A stretch of 64,000 bases of DNA from Planktothrix tepida PCC 9214. Lineage in GTDB: Bacteria > Cyanobacteriota > Cyanobacteriia > Cyanobacteriales > Microcoleaceae. The stretch covers positions 957,486 to 1,021,485 of the forward strand of contig NZ_LN889782.1 in NCBI RefSeq assembly GCF_900009145.1, given 5' to 3'. Below the pieces are notes generated by a model. The model searched no databases, was not told where the DNA came from, and worked only from the letters and a program-made list of their open reading frames with translations. Position numbers and translations under genes: made by a program. Positions 3,520 to 51,266 of the stretch are shown piece after piece (position 1 is the stretch's first letter; each line of letters starts with the position of its first letter).

Positions 3520-3540
3520 GTAGTGAGCCCTTCAGGACTC
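3520..3540. repeat. Dispersed GTAGTGAG...CAGGACTC repeat, copy 1
   Basis: A 21-bp sequence that starts GTAGTGAG and ends TTCAGGACTC. The same sequence, with one base changed, occurs at 43911 and 46370. Confidence 0.8.
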
Positions 3541-43472: not shown

Positions 43473-43907
43473 ATGAAAAAACGACTTCTATCCCTATCCA
43501 TTGCCACTCTATCCCTTTTATCAATAATCAATCTAGCTATGGCTTCTGACTCCTTAGTAGGAACTAATTGGAAATTACTCTCCTGGGGAACTGAAAAATC
43601 CCCCCAAACCCCGTTAAAAGAAACGGAAATCAGCTTACAATTCCAAGAGGATCAAATTAGTGGTTCATCCGGTTGTAACCGTTATTTCGCATCCTACACC
43701 CTGAAGGATGATCAATTAAAATTTGGTGTAGCTGGGAGAACTCAAATGGCTTGTCCTGAAGAAATTATGAAGCAAGAAGATCAATTTCTCTCGGCTTTAC
43801 AATCCTCAAAAACATTTACCCTTAATTCTGAAGGTCAACTGCAAATTACCTATAAAACCGATCAAGAATCTGGGGTAATGATATTTACACCCAATCAACC
43901 TGAATAA
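43473..43907 (+). CDS. Secreted META-domain (HslJ-like) protein
   Basis: A 144-residue protein with a signal peptide (RLLSLSIATLSLLSIINLAMA) and one META domain: TNWKLLSWGTEKSP, GSSGCNRYFASYTLKDDQLKFG and TQMACPEEIMKQEDQFLSAL. The family includes HslJ, a heat-induced envelope protein whose function is not well settled. It is translated together with the binding protein in front of it. A palindrome with T-run ends the unit. Confidence 0.9.
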   Translation: MKKRLLSLSIATLSLLSIINLAMASDSLVGTNWKLLSWGTEKSPQTPLKETEISLQFQEDQISGSSGCNRYFASYTLKDDQLKFGVAGRTQMACPEEIMKQEDQFLSALQSSKTFTLNSEGQLQITYKTDQESGVMIFTPNQPE

Positions 43908-43910
43908 CCC

Positions 43911-43966
43911 GTAGTGAGTCCTTCAGGACTCAAATATAGAGAGTCCTAAAGGACTCACTACTTTTT
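43911..43966 (+). terminator. Terminator formed by a dispersed palindromic repeat, copy 2
   Basis: GTAGTGAGTCC pairs with GGACTCACTAC at the other end (43952-43962), with further pairing inside, and a T-run follows. It lies 4 bp after the META gene. Its left arm is the same repeat as at 3520 and 46370, so a dispersed repeat serves as a terminator here. Confidence 0.75.
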
Positions 43967-43973
43967 ATGGAAA

Positions 43974-44732
43974 TTAATGTTGAGATATAATAGCGATTAG
44001 TTCAGGTTTATTCATCTTTGAATATCCTTTTATCTTTCGTTTTCTCGCAATTTCTTTGAGTTTAAGCACAGTCATATCACTATATTTTGGATCTCTATGA
44101 GTAGACTTGACAGTTAATTTTTCAACTAACTGAGTCAACTTATCAACAATAGCCGTTAAATGATTAACAGTATTTTCAAGCTGTTGTAATCGATTGTTAA
44201 TTTGTGTATTTTCAGAAGATATCATTTGAGATAAGGTTTTAAATTTAGCCTGAGTTTCTTCGTGATCTCGTTTATGTAATTCCATCCATTTCGACAGCTG
44301 TTGTGTTAATTGTACTTCTAATAGTTGTTCATCTTGTCTGATAAGGTCTGGAGTTATAGCTTGAATAGAACCACCGCCAAGCAATTGTTCCAATTCGGTT
44401 TTCATGGTTATTGCTTGTTCATCTGTTAAATCAAAAACCCAAACCCAAAGACGCTCAATTTCTAATTCTTGAGCGACAATACACCAATCTGCACCATAAA
44501 CAATTTCATATTCTTTTTCTTCATCATAAGCTTGGGTTCGTCGCACCACTAAAGACACTAAATTACTTTCATGTTCCCTCAATGTTCGTGCTAAAAGTTC
44601 TCGTCTTTCCAATAGAATATCTATTGTTTCTGCATTCGGTATTGCAATTTGAAACGTATAGATTTGACCATGAGTAAGGGGTTGAATTCCTAAATAAGAA
44701 CCAATTTGAACCCGACGATCTGATAAACTCAT
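43974..44732 (-). CDS. ParB-like protein with coiled coil and C-terminal SAP-type domain
   Basis: A 252-residue protein. Residues 55-110 resemble a ParB/Srx N-terminal fold: NLVSLVVRRTQAYDEEKEYEIVYGADWCIVAQEL then VWVFDLTDEQAI. The usual GERR motif of ParB CTPases is replaced by GADW. A helical coiled coil follows (155-208, with heptad-type leucines in RLQQLENTVNHLTAIVDKLTQLVEKL). The C-terminus (219-252, TVLKLKEIARKRKIKGYSKM...LIAII) fits a SAP or Rho-N helix-loop-helix that usually binds nucleic acid. It starts 5 bp behind the nuclease-ParA gene, so they form an operon. The standard ParB HTH is absent; the SAP-type end may replace it. Confidence 0.75.
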   Translation of the reverse strand: MSLSDRRVQIGSYLGIQPLTHGQIYTFQIAIPNAETIDILLERRELLARTLREHESNLVSLVVRRTQAYDEEKEYEIVYGADWCIVAQELEIERLWVWVFDLTDEQAITMKTELEQLLGGGSIQAITPDLIRQDEQLLEVQLTQQLSKWMELHKRDHEETQAKFKTLSQMISSENTQINNRLQQLENTVNHLTAIVDKLTQLVEKLTVKSTHRDPKYSDMTVLKLKEIARKRKIKGYSKMNKPELIAIISQH

Positions 44733-44737
44733 CGATT

Positions 44738-46240
44738 TTAATTCCCAATTTTAGAAACTTTAACTAAGTGTTGAGCCAAGTCCAGATAACGTTCACTTGC
44801 TTTTTGTGCAGTTTCCTTTTCTTGAAACGTTAGTTGATCATCAAATTCAGAAGAAAAAATCGGGTATCCTTTATCAGGACAGTTAGAAACAATATTCAGC
44901 CGAGGAACCCAAGTATGTTCTGGAAATAAATCAATGGTATCTTGTTCTCCGACTTTATCTAATATCTCAAAAATACGACTTCTCATCGACAGATTAAAAC
45001 TAGAAGAACGTTGATCATACATACTCACAACAATTCCTAAAATTGGTAACGCTTCCTCTTTATATTCTCCGATTTTACGAGCTTGTTCAATCACATATTC
45101 TAAGGCTCTAACCGGATAAGGAGATAATTGTGTGGGGATTAAAATGCCTGAAGAAGCCATTAAAGAAATCCCATTAACTTTACTAAAAGACGGAGGCGGA
45201 TCAATTAAAACAAAATCATAATGATGATTTTTAAGCTTTTTAGCTAAAACTCTATCAATATCAACAATTCTCACTAAATCCGGTTCCATATTACTTAATC
45301 GAATATGGGAGGGAACTAAATGTAACTTCAGATTTCCCCATTGTTTTTCAATCACTGTATCCTCTAGTTTGACTCTCGGATCAATTAATAAATGGGTAAT
45401 ATCTTTTTTTCCTTGATTTTCAATATCCTCTAAGGGGTCAATTCCTAAACCTGTTGTTAAGTTAGCTTGAGCATCGATATCAATTAAAAGCACGTTATAA
45501 CCTAAATGATTTAAGGCGGCTCCTAAATTAATTGTCATCGTGGTTTTACCCACTCCACCCTTATTATTAAAAACAGTAATGATCATCGATTTATTCTCCT
45601 GATTAGAATTAGTAATAAATTTGGATTCTGGCTGCTCCAAATTCTCTCCTGATAATTTAGGAGGTTCGGAATTAGGCTTTTTACGCCGATTAAATAATCC
45701 TAACATAGTGGGATTTTGGAATGAATTGGCAATCGCCCTTAAAAACCGAGTATGAACTTTTTGTTGACTTTTATGTAACGCTTGACTAAATTTTAATCCT
45801 ATTTTTTTACCCAATAATTTACGCACGAGTTGAAAATCTTGAATCAGTTGGGATTGAGAATAGGTTAAAATTGTATGAATATCTCCACTATAATTATAGA
45901 GAATTCTAAATTCATAGCCATTGGTTAATAATCCCAAAATAGCTCCTGACTTTCTCATATAATCATGAATTTGCCAACTCGAATAAACAATTTTTTTCTG
46001 AGGTGCTTTAACTTCAATGATTAAATAGGGGGGATGAGGTGCAACGGCATCATGGGGGTGAACACAAAAATCAACTCTAACTTTATGAATAACAATTTGT
46101 TCCTGCCAGTCCTTGTCATTATAGCCTAAATTTTTCAATAGAGGGATAATAATATTTTGCTCAATATCCGATTCATTACTGGTCGGTGTAATTGATGTAA
46201 ACCCCTGAGCAAGAGAAAGCGTTGAATGGGTTAATGACAT
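44738..46240 (-). CDS. Restriction-type nuclease domain fused to a ParA ATPase
   Basis: A 500-residue two-part protein. Residues 20-150 resemble the type I restriction R-subunit N-terminal domain (HsdR_N_2), with NESDIEQNIIIPLLKNLGY, Asp57 in VRVDF, and Glu76 and Lys78 in YLIIEVKAP, a complete PD-(D/E)XK-type set. A polar linker (185-218) leads to a full ParA/MinD ATPase: deviant Walker A NNKGGVGKTTMT (Lys227, Lys232), LLIDIDAQANLTTGLGI, YDFVLIDPPPSF. ParA proteins normally move DNA or protein cargo over the nucleoid; a fused nuclease is unusual. The partner is the ParB-like gene downstream. A role in DNA segregation, plasmid exclusion or defence is inference. Confidence 0.82.
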   Translation of the reverse strand: MSLTHSTLSLAQGFTSITPTSNESDIEQNIIIPLLKNLGYNDKDWQEQIVIHKVRVDFCVHPHDAVAPHPPYLIIEVKAPQKKIVYSSWQIHDYMRKSGAILGLLTNGYEFRILYNYSGDIHTILTYSQSQLIQDFQLVRKLLGKKIGLKFSQALHKSQQKVHTRFLRAIANSFQNPTMLGLFNRRKKPNSEPPKLSGENLEQPESKFITNSNQENKSMIITVFNNKGGVGKTTMTINLGAALNHLGYNVLLIDIDAQANLTTGLGIDPLEDIENQGKKDITHLLIDPRVKLEDTVIEKQWGNLKLHLVPSHIRLSNMEPDLVRIVDIDRVLAKKLKNHHYDFVLIDPPPSFSKVNGISLMASSGILIPTQLSPYPVRALEYVIEQARKIGEYKEEALPILGIVVSMYDQRSSSFNLSMRSRIFEILDKVGEQDTIDLFPEHTWVPRLNIVSNCPDKGYPIFSSEFDDQLTFQEKETAQKASERYLDLAQHLVKVSKIGN

Positions 46241-46369
46241 GAAGTGAACAGATGCACTTTTTTCTGATAATACCTATCTAATTTACAAAAAACATCCGTT
46301 AAATTACTGATTTTAGTAAATTTAATATAACCGATGATTCTTCTCTAATACGGATTAATGATCAAAATC

Positions 46370-46390
46370 GTAGTGAGTCCTTCAGGACTC
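46370..46390. repeat. Dispersed GTAGTGAG...CAGGACTC repeat, copy 3
   Basis: The same 21-bp sequence as the left arm of the repeat at 43911. It lies 130 bp upstream of the nuclease-ParA gene. A palindromic GAGGCGTGAACGCCTC segment follows at about 46396-46411. Confidence 0.8.
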
Positions 46391-46417
46391 TAATAGAGGC
46401 GTGAACGCCTCACGACT

Positions 46418-46446
46418 AAAAAACCCTCTGCCATGAGCGCGAGGGT
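46418..46446 (-). terminator. Terminator of desA
   Basis: On the minus strand ACCCTC pairs with GAGGGT across a 12-base loop and is followed by six T. It lies about 30 bp after the desA stop. Confidence 0.75.
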
Positions 46447-46476
46447 GTAAGACATTAATTAAGATGGGAATTTTAA

Positions 46477-47523
46477 TTAATTCTGGTATTCCTTAAAGGA
46501 AAGATACGCATTCTCAGCATCATATAAATGGCATTGATCCACAATATGAGTCATTAAAGACCAGGAAAAATCAGACTCAGGATAGAGATATTCACCCCAA
46601 TTATCTTGGATAATTTGATAAGCTTTCCGTAAATTGTAGGAAGGAATAGCCGTGGAAATGTGGTGAGGAACGTGAACATTAATATCGTGACAGAAGAACT
46701 CAACCCAAGCCGGATAATTACAGTGAACAGTTCCCGATAATTGAGCTAAAGCTTCATCCCAATCTTGGGGTTCTTTAAACTGAATATCGGGAGCCGTGTG
46801 GTGAACGAGAGTGAAGGTACTCATCCAGAAATGGTAAACGAGCCAAGGCATTAACCAGAATTTGACAAAACCCCAAACTCCGATTGTATAAATTAATGTG
46901 GGGAATGCGATCGCAGCACATCCTATCACAAATAAAGAAGAAAATTTAACGTCTTCTCGTTCTTTTCCTTCAAATCTGCGCCAATCAAAGTGAAGAATTG
47001 CCCAATGCAAAATTGAGGCTAACCACCACAGCCGTCCCCGTGTTAATTTATAAGCAACTTTTACCACTTGGGGCGACGCTTCATAATTTTCGATTGTCCA
47101 GGGTTCCCAAGCGTTATCTTCAGTCAGTTTATTGGTATGTTTGTGATGATGATTATGCCCTAAACGCCAACTGTGGAAGGGATAAATTAAGGGAAGAAAT
47201 GTTAAATGTCCGACTACATCATTCACCCAACGACGGTTAGAAAAAGAACGATGTCCGCAGTCATGACCAATAACGAAAAAACCCGTTAAGGCTGTCCCAG
47301 TAAAAATCCAAGCAATGGGGAGTAAAAACCAGGGAGAATAAGCAATAGCCAAATAGCCAACAACAACTAGAACAACACTACTCAAAACAGTCAGCCAAGC
47401 TTTTTTGGGATCTTTGAGGAAGACTTCACGAGGTAGAGTCTTTATAATGTCTTTTAAACGTAGATTTGATGTGGAATTAGCAGAAGATGCTAGGGTTTGA
47501 GGTTGAACAGATGATAATGTCAT
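46477..47523 (-). CDS. desA: Acyl-lipid delta-12 (omega-6) fatty acid desaturase
   Basis: A 348-residue membrane desaturase. The three His boxes are present: HDCGH (87-91), HNHHH (123-127) and HVPHH (about 288). It places the second double bond in membrane lipids using ferredoxin electrons, giving linoleate from oleate. The sequence around box 1 ([30 protein letters not shown]) is typical of DesA. Cyanobacterial desA is usually cold-induced; the 320-bp leader region upstream is long enough for such control, but I cannot show it. It has its own terminator. Confidence 0.93.
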
Positions 47524-49510: not shown

Positions 49511-50440
49511 TTAAGTTTGATGAACCGATTCAAGAATTTTTTGTTTAATTGGGTTCAATTTCTGTTCTATCCAGTCTGGTACTTGATCTTCTTGTAAAAC
49601 ATCTGCTCCTAAATCTAAGTAATTTGCTGTCGATTGCTCATAGATGTTTTGTCGCTCTAAATAATCGGGAGAATCTTCTTTTGGAGGAAGTGTAATCACA
49701 GCTATGGGTAAATCTTGATTGCACTTCTTAACATTTTCAATAGACCAAGAAAGTGCTTGTAAAGAATTTTCTGGTGGATTGATTTCAAATGACAAACCCT
49801 GCGCTAATAGATAAGGATTCCCATTCGCAACGGCCACATCAAATTTAAACTTTTCTCGCTTTCCATAAAGTTCATATTTTTGTTTTATTAAAGTTTTAAA
49901 TTGCTCCTGATTTTCCTGACCTAGCCAGTTTTTGAAAGCTTCTTTGACACTAGAAGTTGCAACTCTAGCAGCCTGTTGTCGATCGCGGAGTTTAGATTTA
50001 TAAAGTGATGGAATTGAGGAATTTATAGCAATATCTTTATAGCTTTTATCTCTATTAATGAGGGAATTATGAGGATCAACAAGGAAATCTTCAACAATAT
50101 CGTGGAGTAGTTTATCTACATCAGCTAGAGAAGGATGGGGTTCTGTAAACTGAATACTATTTCTCCACCCTCGCACAATTTCTGTTAATCGCTCGTGTTT
50201 AGGAATTTCACTTTCTTCATCTCCTGGAAACATTAACCCACGAGATGCTGTTTCTTTCATTCTTGCAGCAAAGTTTGTTAGAAAGTCAATATTTTCCATC
50301 CCGAAATTACGAACACGCTCCCAGTTTGATAAAAACTGTACACGAACTTCCTGATCCGAGAAAGCCACAACACCAATATTAATCCGTTCATTCGCAATCG
50401 GATTAGGAACATATTGAATAATACTGTATCTGCTAACCAT
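49511..50440 (-). CDS. DUF3037 protein
   Basis: A 309-residue protein. The N-terminus SRYSIIQYVPNPIANERINIGVVAFSDQEV is the hallmark of DUF3037. The rest is helical and polar, with a possible PD-(D/E)XK-like middle (YGKREKFKFDVAVANGNPYLLAQGLSFEI), but a catalytic set is not obvious. DUF3037 genes commonly pair with a HipA-like kinase gene, as here (31 bp spacing). The function is unknown. A role as antitoxin or substrate for the kinase is inference. Confidence 0.8.
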   Translation of the reverse strand: MVSRYSIIQYVPNPIANERINIGVVAFSDQEVRVQFLSNWERVRNFGMENIDFLTNFAARMKETASRGLMFPGDEESEIPKHERLTEIVRGWRNSIQFTEPHPSLADVDKLLHDIVEDFLVDPHNSLINRDKSYKDIAINSSIPSLYKSKLRDRQQAARVATSSVKEAFKNWLGQENQEQFKTLIKQKYELYGKREKFKFDVAVANGNPYLLAQGLSFEINPPENSLQALSWSIENVKKCNQDLPIAVITLPPKEDSPDYLERQNIYEQSTANYLDLGADVLQEDQVPDWIEQKLNPIKQKILESVHQT

Positions 50441-50471
50441 AGGCTTTGGTGTTATGTCTTGCTTGGATGGG

Positions 50472-51266
50472 TTAGAGAAGATTAACTAACTGTTGTTGCC
50501 TCTTAACTAAGTATTCCACCATCGTAACTCGTTCTTCCATTTTAAGCCCCCATTGCTTAGGAGGTGCTGCAACGGCTTGAATAATCATATCTTCAGAAAC
50601 TTGATCAAGTTGTTCTAAAGCATTTATGATTTCTGGGGACTCGCGGCTTAAAGAACAGAGTCTGCTTAAACGAGTATCTAACTCAGCAGCCGGAGCTTGA
50701 CTGAGAGTTTCCTGAGTCCAGTTTGGCCCGCCAGGGAAAAAATGGCCATGATCGACAGAATAAACTCGATTAGGATACTGTTTTTCAAAGAGAAACTGAT
50801 GATCCTTAGCCAAAACCCAACCATACAATACACACAAACTCGCAAACCGAGGAATATTTTCTGCTGGGTGAGTGCGAAACTTAGTTAAATCCCTGTCATC
50901 CTCACAATTTTGGATAAAAAGAGTAGCGTGTGCTGTCCCTGCTGTAAGGTAATTATATCGAGGCTCGCATTCCAAAAGATCAGGAGAAATTTCAACAATT
51001 CTAGGACGACCAACTGGTGCACCTAAAGCCATTCCTAGTCGTGCAATAATTTGATCATTGACAATCTGACGACCTGCCTGTTGGCCTTTAATAATATAAG
51101 TTTGTTTATCAATACATCGAACAGAGACAGGACAGGCTGAGGTCTTCCAACCCCAACCATCATTAAATCTTTCAACAAGCAGAGGTTCTTCTGGGTGAGC
51201 GATAGCAGATTCTAAAGCATCTCTCCATTGTTCTTGTTGTTGCTGGTGGGTTGGTTTACTATTCAC
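50472..51266 (-). CDS. HipA-like kinase-fold protein
   Basis: A 264-residue protein like the short HipA_2 group. Possible ATP contacts are Lys60 in TYIIKGQ and acidic residues Asp155 in VLAKDHQFLF and Asp172 in VYSVDHGHFF. The HipA catalytic motif DRHxxN is reduced to KDHQFL, so the usual Asn is missing and kinase activity is uncertain. HipA itself phosphorylates a glutamyl-tRNA synthetase and causes growth arrest; this group lacks such data as far as I know. It is co-directional with and 31 bp from the DUF3037 gene. Confidence 0.75.
   Translation of the reverse strand: MNSKPTHQQQQEQWRDALESAIAHPEEPLLVERFNDGWGWKTSACPVSVRCIDKQTYIIKGQQAGRQIVNDQIIARLGMALGAPVGRPRIVEISPDLLECEPRYNYLTAGTAHATLFIQNCEDDRDLTKFRTHPAENIPRFASLCVLYGWVLAKDHQFLFEKQYPNRVYSVDHGHFFPGGPNWTQETLSQAPAAELDTRLSRLCSLSRESPEIINALEQLDQVSEDMIIQAVAAPPKQWGLKMEERVTMVEYLVKRQQQLVNLL

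Follow-up and report, generated by a model that had tools for sequence, protein, structure and literature searches.

ParA systems are known as movers of DNA and organelles. Nucleases have been described beside the ParB fold: the available part of a survey reports ParB heads joined to DNA-acting domains, ParB-HNH fusions included (PMC12704722), and GmrSD type IV restriction, in the available part of its description (PMC4619093), unites a ParB/Srx-like fold with a nuclease in a single device, with domains reassembled from distant sources. Here, a window of 64,000 nucleotides (the whole stretch of DNA analyzed) from the cyanobacterium Planktothrix tepida PCC 9214 (contig NZ_LN889782.1, positions 957,486 to 1,021,485) was examined. 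On its minus strand, a gene at 44738..46240 encodes an N-terminal nuclease-type domain (HSDR_N_2, of the PD-(D/E)XK kind) joined to a ParA ATPase, and it is followed by a partner gene at 43974..44732. The two genes may form a chromosomal accessory system for DNA surveillance or exclusion, a tentative reading to which we give a little less than an even chance.

The fusion (P0001) is an open reading frame (ORF) of 500 amino acids (aa) with an ATG start, start codons of ORFs having been picked mechanically, and the opposite, plus-strand frame of the same interval contains 47 stops. The 6.78 Mb genome holds a single copy, on a 1.68 Mb contig. From Pfam, alignments and AlphaFold2, its motor was assigned to type A, one of two types seen among 139 distinct fusions gathered within cyanobacteria (36 of type A and 103 of type B); the set pools samples that overlap, duplicates having been removed where the last 300 residues are identical, and does not represent random sampling. 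The two types share 24–28% identity.

The nuclease-type domain covers residues 20-128 (45857..46183, minus strand). Its match to HSDR_N_2 (PF13588, residues 23-114) reached 29.6 bits in Pfam, with a cut-off of 25 (E 7.8e-7), and the family was present in 17/17 fusions scanned. The codons of the catalytic residues lie on the same strand at 46070-46072 (Asp57), 46013-46015 (Glu76) and 46007-46009 (Lys78). In an alignment of 131 fusions with lengths of 440 aa or more (34 of type A, 97 of type B), Glu23, Glu76 and Lys78 were each kept in 130 and Asp57 in 128. The usual order of the PD-(D/E)XK core is alpha-beta-beta-beta-alpha-beta. The AlphaFold2 model of the fusion (mean predicted local distance difference test score, pLDDT, of 83.6, with 26 aligned A-type sequences as input) predicted for this domain a helix at 23-37, strands at 45-51, 54-60 and 73-77, a helix at 84-98 and strands at 102-106, 110-117 and 120-128, which places Asp57 in strand two and Glu76 in strand three. 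The predicted arrangement, Asp and Glu-x-Lys on adjacent strands of such a core, is that of a PD-(D/E)XK domain. A search of solved structures by sequence with the N-domain found no relative (best E 0.33). The sequence-only reading of this DNA had placed an HsdR_N_2 domain with Asp57, Glu76 and Lys78 here; the profile score above cut-off, the nuclease-type topology of the predicted structure and the conservation of the three residues, at the positions it gave, all uphold it.

The nuclease part is under purifying selection. The median ratio of non-synonymous to synonymous substitution rates (dN/dS), computed on fusion pairs 80–99% identical, was 0.118 for this part among B pairs (173) and 0.105 among A pairs (7), compared with 0.122 (B) and 0.032 (A) for the ParA part and 0.548 (B) and 0.285 (A) for the linker region (residues 150-217). 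In the trio of A fusions from the genus of the window, constraint on the nuclease part was weaker (0.22–0.35). The flexible linker itself spans residues 185-216 (45593..45688, minus strand), where pLDDT falls below 50.

Residues 219-500 (44741..45586, minus strand) form the full deviant-Walker ParA that had been claimed from the sequence. AAA_31/ParA was matched over residues 220-398 (Pfam, E 6.1e-41), and the solved chain closest by sequence to this part was Soj (6iub, E 9.7e-34). The deviant Walker A motif is KGGVGKTT (227-234); its lysines, Lys227 and Lys232, were present in 131/131 aligned fusions, and the other Walker residues checked were all kept except for one conservative Thr/Ser change.

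The fusion had previously been treated as a lone protein, and the gene that is key to the system was overlooked. The partner (P0002, 252 aa; 43974..44732, minus strand) starts 5 nt past the fusion stop and consists of a ParB_N-like head, a coiled coil and a Rho_N tail. The lone-fusion reading was dropped because a partner is present at nearly all loci. A homologous one was found at the 16/16 A-type loci read first, and a usable partner ORF, taken by position only as the first ORF of 120 aa or more to follow on the same strand, in 130/139 distinct fusions, with a gap of -40 to +30 nt in 119/130. The remaining 9/139 were four unreliable calls (L014, L082, L210 and L259), removed before the tails were counted, and five fusions without a partner found beside them: four apparently at the ends of stretches or contigs and one, L256, also without Glu76 and Lys78 and apparently decayed.

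The head of the partner corresponds to residues 1-115 (44388..44732, minus strand). Its ParB_N match in P0002 is weak (E 0.021, below cut-off), and support comes through comparisons of A-type and B-type partners. ParB_N was detected at E<=0.01 in 12/13 B-type and 8/17 A-type partners; a profile of B partners matched the solved chains of Noc (E 2.9e-8) and ParB (E 1.1e-5), no ParB chain was among the matches of the A-type partner to solved structures, and the A partner profile matched that of the B partners with a probability of 97.8%. A GERR-type motif is canonical in ParB heads; the corresponding residues were GADW in P0002 and mostly G-D/H-x-E-Y in 13 aligned B-type partners. The middle is coiled-coil-like, coiled-coil chains being among the weak structure matches of A-type partners. 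The tails are Rho_N/SAP-like or of one of two helix-hairpin-helix-like (HhH) kinds; that of P0002 is a Rho_N tail (PF07498, E 4.4e-7) at residues 219-251 (43980..44078, minus strand), an exchangeable module judging from the tail mosaic described below. ParB-type helix-turn-helix (HTH) families were not among the matches of the A- and B-type partners scanned, and 1/13 B-type partners matched Mga HTH (E 0.0053). Additionally, three B-type and two A-type genomes have, close to the locus, a second, orphan-looking paralogue of the A-type partner (L083:6145-7242, L084:11382-12470, L087:11272-12366, L070:8304-9392 and L071:16071-17000).

Motor and head are inherited together, presumably through their mutual contact, and the tail forms a module of its own. 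The partner head was nearest to heads of its own motor type in 34/34 A and 96/96 B cases, and the tail was nearest to a tail of the other motor type in 15/34 A and 8/96 B; this test uses the tail classes only to set the tail length compared. The tail class differed in 7/81 fusion pairs of 85–99.9% identity, and the motor trees required at least 9 (A) and at least 11 (B) tail changes, counts that rest on classes seeded by eye (35/130 partners as seeds).

The two motor types also share genomic places. A similar neighbor (at least 55% identity within 6 kb) was shared with some B locus by 25/43 A loci, and on both sides by 15/43 (12 distinct); the 43 A loci represent 36 distinct ones, and a few of the neighbor pairs may be paralogues. 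Within single genera, neighbors were 88–95% identical between L072 and L097 and 82–99% identical between L073 and L248. A and B were found at one place in three genera, that of the window included, and replacement in place is therefore the probable history.

A single locus, with a fatty-acid desaturase gene on one side and a META-domain gene on the other, was compared in ten genomes of the genus of the window; it holds type A in three, type B in four, no unit in two and other genes in one (G053). The A units carry a Rho_N tail in G000 and an HhH tail in G048 and G049; the B units carry a Rho_N tail in G046 and G047 and an HhH tail in G045, and that of G050 is cut by a contig end. At the empty sites, in G051 and G052, the desaturase and META genes adjoin, 114 and 63 bp apart, and no fusion was found genome-wide at E<=1e-30 in G051-G053. 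When G049 (A) was compared with G045 (B) at the nucleotide level, identity was 96% in the desaturase, 59% in the fusion, 56% in the head, 86% in the tail and 83% in the META gene; for G046 and G045 (both B) it was 98, 95, 82, 59 and 97%, respectively. As a baseline, one shuffled fusion scored 56%. The idea that spare tails are kept elsewhere in the genome was considered and rejected, the HhH tail having been found solely at this locus, in 3/10 genomes.

The edges of the cassette are marked by copies of a palindromic repeat dispersed in the genus, at 46365..46440 (upstream) and 43904..43968 (downstream). Its core is GAGTCCTGAAGGACTCACTAC; a third copy in the window, at 3520-3540, has one mismatch. 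The 6.78 Mb genome has seven exact cores, of which the cassette edges account for two, and genomes of the genus have 5–38 each. The palindrome flanks both sides of the unit in the six filled sites compared and is present as a single copy in both empty sites; recombination between such copies would explain loss of the unit. No RNA elements were detected at gathering threshold within 43500-47000.

The N-domain query gave a match in 104/243 genomes of the order, exactly one in each, and 14 of these carriers were judged to be type A from identities. The chance of no B in the 14 A genomes if the types were independent is about 0.0015, with relatedness ignored and a second (B) match visible only if B reached E 1e-5. 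The B query matched 45/292 genomes of the phylum at E<=1e-40, nuclease-free ParAs included. An A profile run over 84,980 named genomes found at least 29 cyanobacterial type A loci, in Kamptonema, Okeania, Nostoc, Scytonema, Calothrix, Oscillatoria, Leptolyngbya, Gloeomargaritales and others; among them are a broken locus (L141), a cut one (L139) and one without the N-domain (L135). Among the matches listed, 51 further loci had alignments that start at residue 172 or beyond, within ParA, and the 80 loci kept from viral contigs all matched only from residue 202 on. The patterns of these two scans lay in the ParA part, so that N-domain fusions outside cyanobacteria could be missed by them; the other samples were drawn inside the phylum of the window. 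In a quick tree of the ParA domain, A and B each formed a clade with stand-alone relatives (support 99 and 100), and their sister relation (89) involved long branches; the tree is compatible with the nuclease having been joined once or twice.

Nuclease-free relatives were also found. B-like ParAs without the domain, each followed by a partner-like gene, occur at L356, L357, L358, L359 and L360; ParB_N was detected in the two partners scanned (L356 and L360), and those of L357-L359 were judged by eye. L135, mentioned above, is a nuclease-free ParA of type A. One cluster (L082:3079-10665) contains Cas4-like and DUF2779 ORFs, a two-ORF A-type fusion with its partner, a helicase ORF, a helicase-ParA ORF and a B partner. 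The Cas4-like ORF was below cut-off in Pfam and matched Cas4 in PADLOC (6.6e-8); the helicase ORF matched AAA_11 and MkoA (E 8.2e-33), and the helicase-ParA ORF combines the C-terminal half of such a helicase (AAA_12; MkoA, E 1e-33) with a B-type ParA. The ParA-partner core therefore exists alone or joined to different DNA enzymes. As side observations, a PhoD-like phosphatase gene precedes the nuclease-free pair of L358 with a 4 nt overlap (L358:3439-4866); the nuclease and ParA parts are separate overlapping ORFs, by gene split or frameshift, at L361:2919-4281 and L362:2034-3378; and a second ParA-family protein (294–405 aa, with an NMKGGVGKTT-type start) was seen near the locus in several families, at L072, L075, L076, L088, L095, L097, L102, L114, L118, L122 and L128.

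Loci that are polymorphic between conserved flanks are a typical feature of defence genes. A role in surveillance or exclusion is suggested, at somewhat below even confidence, by the nuclease residues, the dispensability of the unit within the genus, the cassette replacement, the tail exchange and the kinship, seen once, with helicase and Cas4-like ORFs. In the mechanism we propose, the partner would bind target DNA through its C-terminal Rho_N/SAP-like or HhH tail and close on it as a ParB-type, nucleotide-switched clamp. Its head would meet ATP-bound ParA dimers coating the nucleoid and stimulate them, and the gathering of ParA would bring the PD-(D/E)XK domains together on the target, which would then be cut by their putative nuclease activity. 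The target may be invading or surplus DNA. Motor and head would work as a matched pair, and the tail, swapped between lineages, would set which DNA is handled. The predicted device that handles or removes DNA, as the sequence-only reading put it, fits this evidence, and the unit looks more like a putative DNA-surveillance device than like ordinary chromosome segregation. A bolder version, which we regard as unlikely, would be a new ParA-motor form of genome defence or DNA exclusion: ParA gradients would place the nuclease, a tailed ParB-type clamp would pick the DNA, tail swaps would change specificity and cassette replacement the motor, and self would be told from non-self by spatial partitioning rather than by sequence marks.

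Several observations weigh against DNA surveillance or exclusion as the function. Asp57 is replaced by Gly in L242, L246 and L250, all of one genus, with Glu76 and Lys78 kept and Asp kept in congeners; this loss and the existence of ParA-partner pairs without the nuclease domain (L356-L360 and the A-type L135) indicate that the core can therefore act without cutting. No match to a known system was obtained in PADLOC-DB: the fusion gave weak matches, to PDC-M28B (1.1e-6) in the ParA part and to MTase_I and DrmMI (0.0024 and worse), and the partner gave none. The unit had been expected to travel with defence genes, an idea that found little support: in 135 neighbor proteins of 100–900 aa from 35 loci, no PADLOC family had more than two matches at E<=1e-15 (25 of the 43 matched families being listed, without a control set). 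The L082 cluster does include a Mokosh-like helicase and a Cas4-like ORF, and a candidate defence pair lies 3 kb from the fusion in the window. Many neighbors look housekeeping when read by eye, and the same desaturase adjoins the fusion in the genomes read from the family of the window, unlike many defence genes. The fusion is also widespread, at one N-domain match in each of the 104 carriers. An origin in plasmids or phages was tried and rejected, no N-domain match having been found in plasmids (A and B queries) or phages (B query), in collections that may omit records very near the genome of the window. Finally, canonical ParB was as frequent order-wide in carriers (50/104) as in non-carriers (65/139; odds ratio 1.05, p 0.90), if, as presumed, the N-domain and ParB scans drew the same 243 genomes. 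These counts lend no support to plasmid exclusion, which the sequence-only reading had offered as an example, nor order-wide to the unit as a substitute for a missing chromosomal ParB, a candidate that was set aside. In the family of the window, the figures were 14/42 carriers and 9/10 non-carriers (p 0.003), a difference confounded by genus.

The candidate pair just mentioned consists of a DUF3037 protein and a HipA_2 kinase at 49511-51266 (minus strand), with matches to PDC-M66B (5.4e-10) and PDC-M66A (0.0099). Apparently the same pair is present in G045 and absent from the listings of G046, G048 and G049, as read by eye.

The main rival to DNA surveillance or exclusion is ParAB-type segregation of the chromosome or another replicon, in which the PD-(D/E)XK domain would bind DNA, trim it or resolve tangled copies; we consider it somewhat unlikely. 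A ParA and a partner with a ParB_N-like head in one operon are what such a system would have, nuclease-free ParA-partner pairs exist, the operon stands on megabase contigs in finished genomes with one N-domain match per genome, and canonical ParB was missing at E<=1e-3 from some carriers, G045 and G049 among them. However, partition has no need of conserved nuclease residues, the partners lack a detected ParB-type HTH, and the unit is missing from 3/10 genomes of the genus, with two clean empty sites. Around the operon, the only surroundings searched, the dispersed palindrome and weak repeats were found and no parS-like site. The distance to dnaN, taken as a proxy of the origin, ranged from 1 to 49% of the chromosome in 18 genomes, with a mean of 20%; a Kolmogorov-Smirnov test of these distances against uniform gave p 0.089, so that linkage to the origin is not clear.

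A factor for DNA repair, recombination or the processing of DNA taken up, which would be placed by its ParA and would process ends with its nuclease, is a doubtful alternative. The Rho_N/SAP-like and HhH tails, the PD-(D/E)XK domain and the helicase and Cas4-like ORFs beside one relative would suit it; presence and absence combined with repeated A/B replacement at one locus would be unusual for repair genes, and no recurrent repair neighbor was noticed by eye. Positioning of a protein cargo, with the nuclease-like domain as a DNA-binding adaptor, appears less probable still. ParA positioning systems do use small partner proteins, as McdAB does for carboxysomes in cyanobacteria (PMC6328274, in the part available), but here the partner combines a ParB_N-like head with tails of a nucleic-acid-binding type, and nearly every fusion retains its active-site residues. 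A selfish, addiction-like cassette that persists through its own nuclease and moves when the flanking repeats recombine is the least credible of these alternatives, for although its edges are two of the few exact palindrome cores in the genome and the empty sites keep one, the unit has no third gene as a possible antidote, no transposase or integrase was found among six neighbors (Pfam), and other genera of the family have long kept it at a single location.

The locus offers ready comparisons: within a single genus it combines the two motor types with different tails in a natural two-by-two set, plus empty sites, suited to comparing tail recognition and the role of the nuclease. If the fusion does cut, intracellular positioning would be joined to DNA removal. 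The unit is common, 104/243 genomes of the order carrying the N-domain, yet no paper describing an HSDR_N-ParA fusion was found in the open-access literature searched, which agrees with the earlier statement that no characterized system has this shape, and no ParA system bearing a conserved nuclease came up there either. The available part of one paper names HSDR_N_2 only in a genome comparison (PMC12539734), and in the main text of the closest survey (PMC12704722), a term search found neither HSDR nor Rho.

Compared with ParABS (ParA/Soj, ParB/Spo0J and Noc), the unit shares a deviant Walker-A ParA and, in the same operon, a partner whose head is of ParB_N type at B-type loci and more weakly ParB_N-like in the A type of the window; it differs by the nuclease-type domain on ParA, by its presence and absence within a genus, and by a partner with a coiled coil and an exchangeable Rho_N or HhH tail, without a detected ParB-type HTH or a parS near the operon. 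With HsdR of type I restriction it has in common the N-terminal PD-(D/E)XK domain (PF13588); here, however, ParA replaces the SF2 helicase motor, which Pfam did not detect in the fusion, and no hsdM or hsdS was found among the ORFs at 36-56 kb (by eye) or the six neighbors (Pfam). GmrSD has an HNH nuclease and is not known to include a ParA. In the ParB-CTPase fold fusions, as far as the available part of the survey goes, the nuclease is on the ParB-type protein (PMC12704722), whereas here it is on ParA. Mokosh is approached through L082, where a B-type ParA is fused to the C-terminal half of an MkoA-like helicase; the unit of the window has no helicase. McdAB also pairs a cyanobacterial ParA ATPase with a small partner, and the unit differs from it by the nuclease domain and by its partner type, set apart without a profile comparison. 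The parts are known, and, to our knowledge, their combination, the placement of the nuclease on ParA and the mosaic of motors and tails are new.

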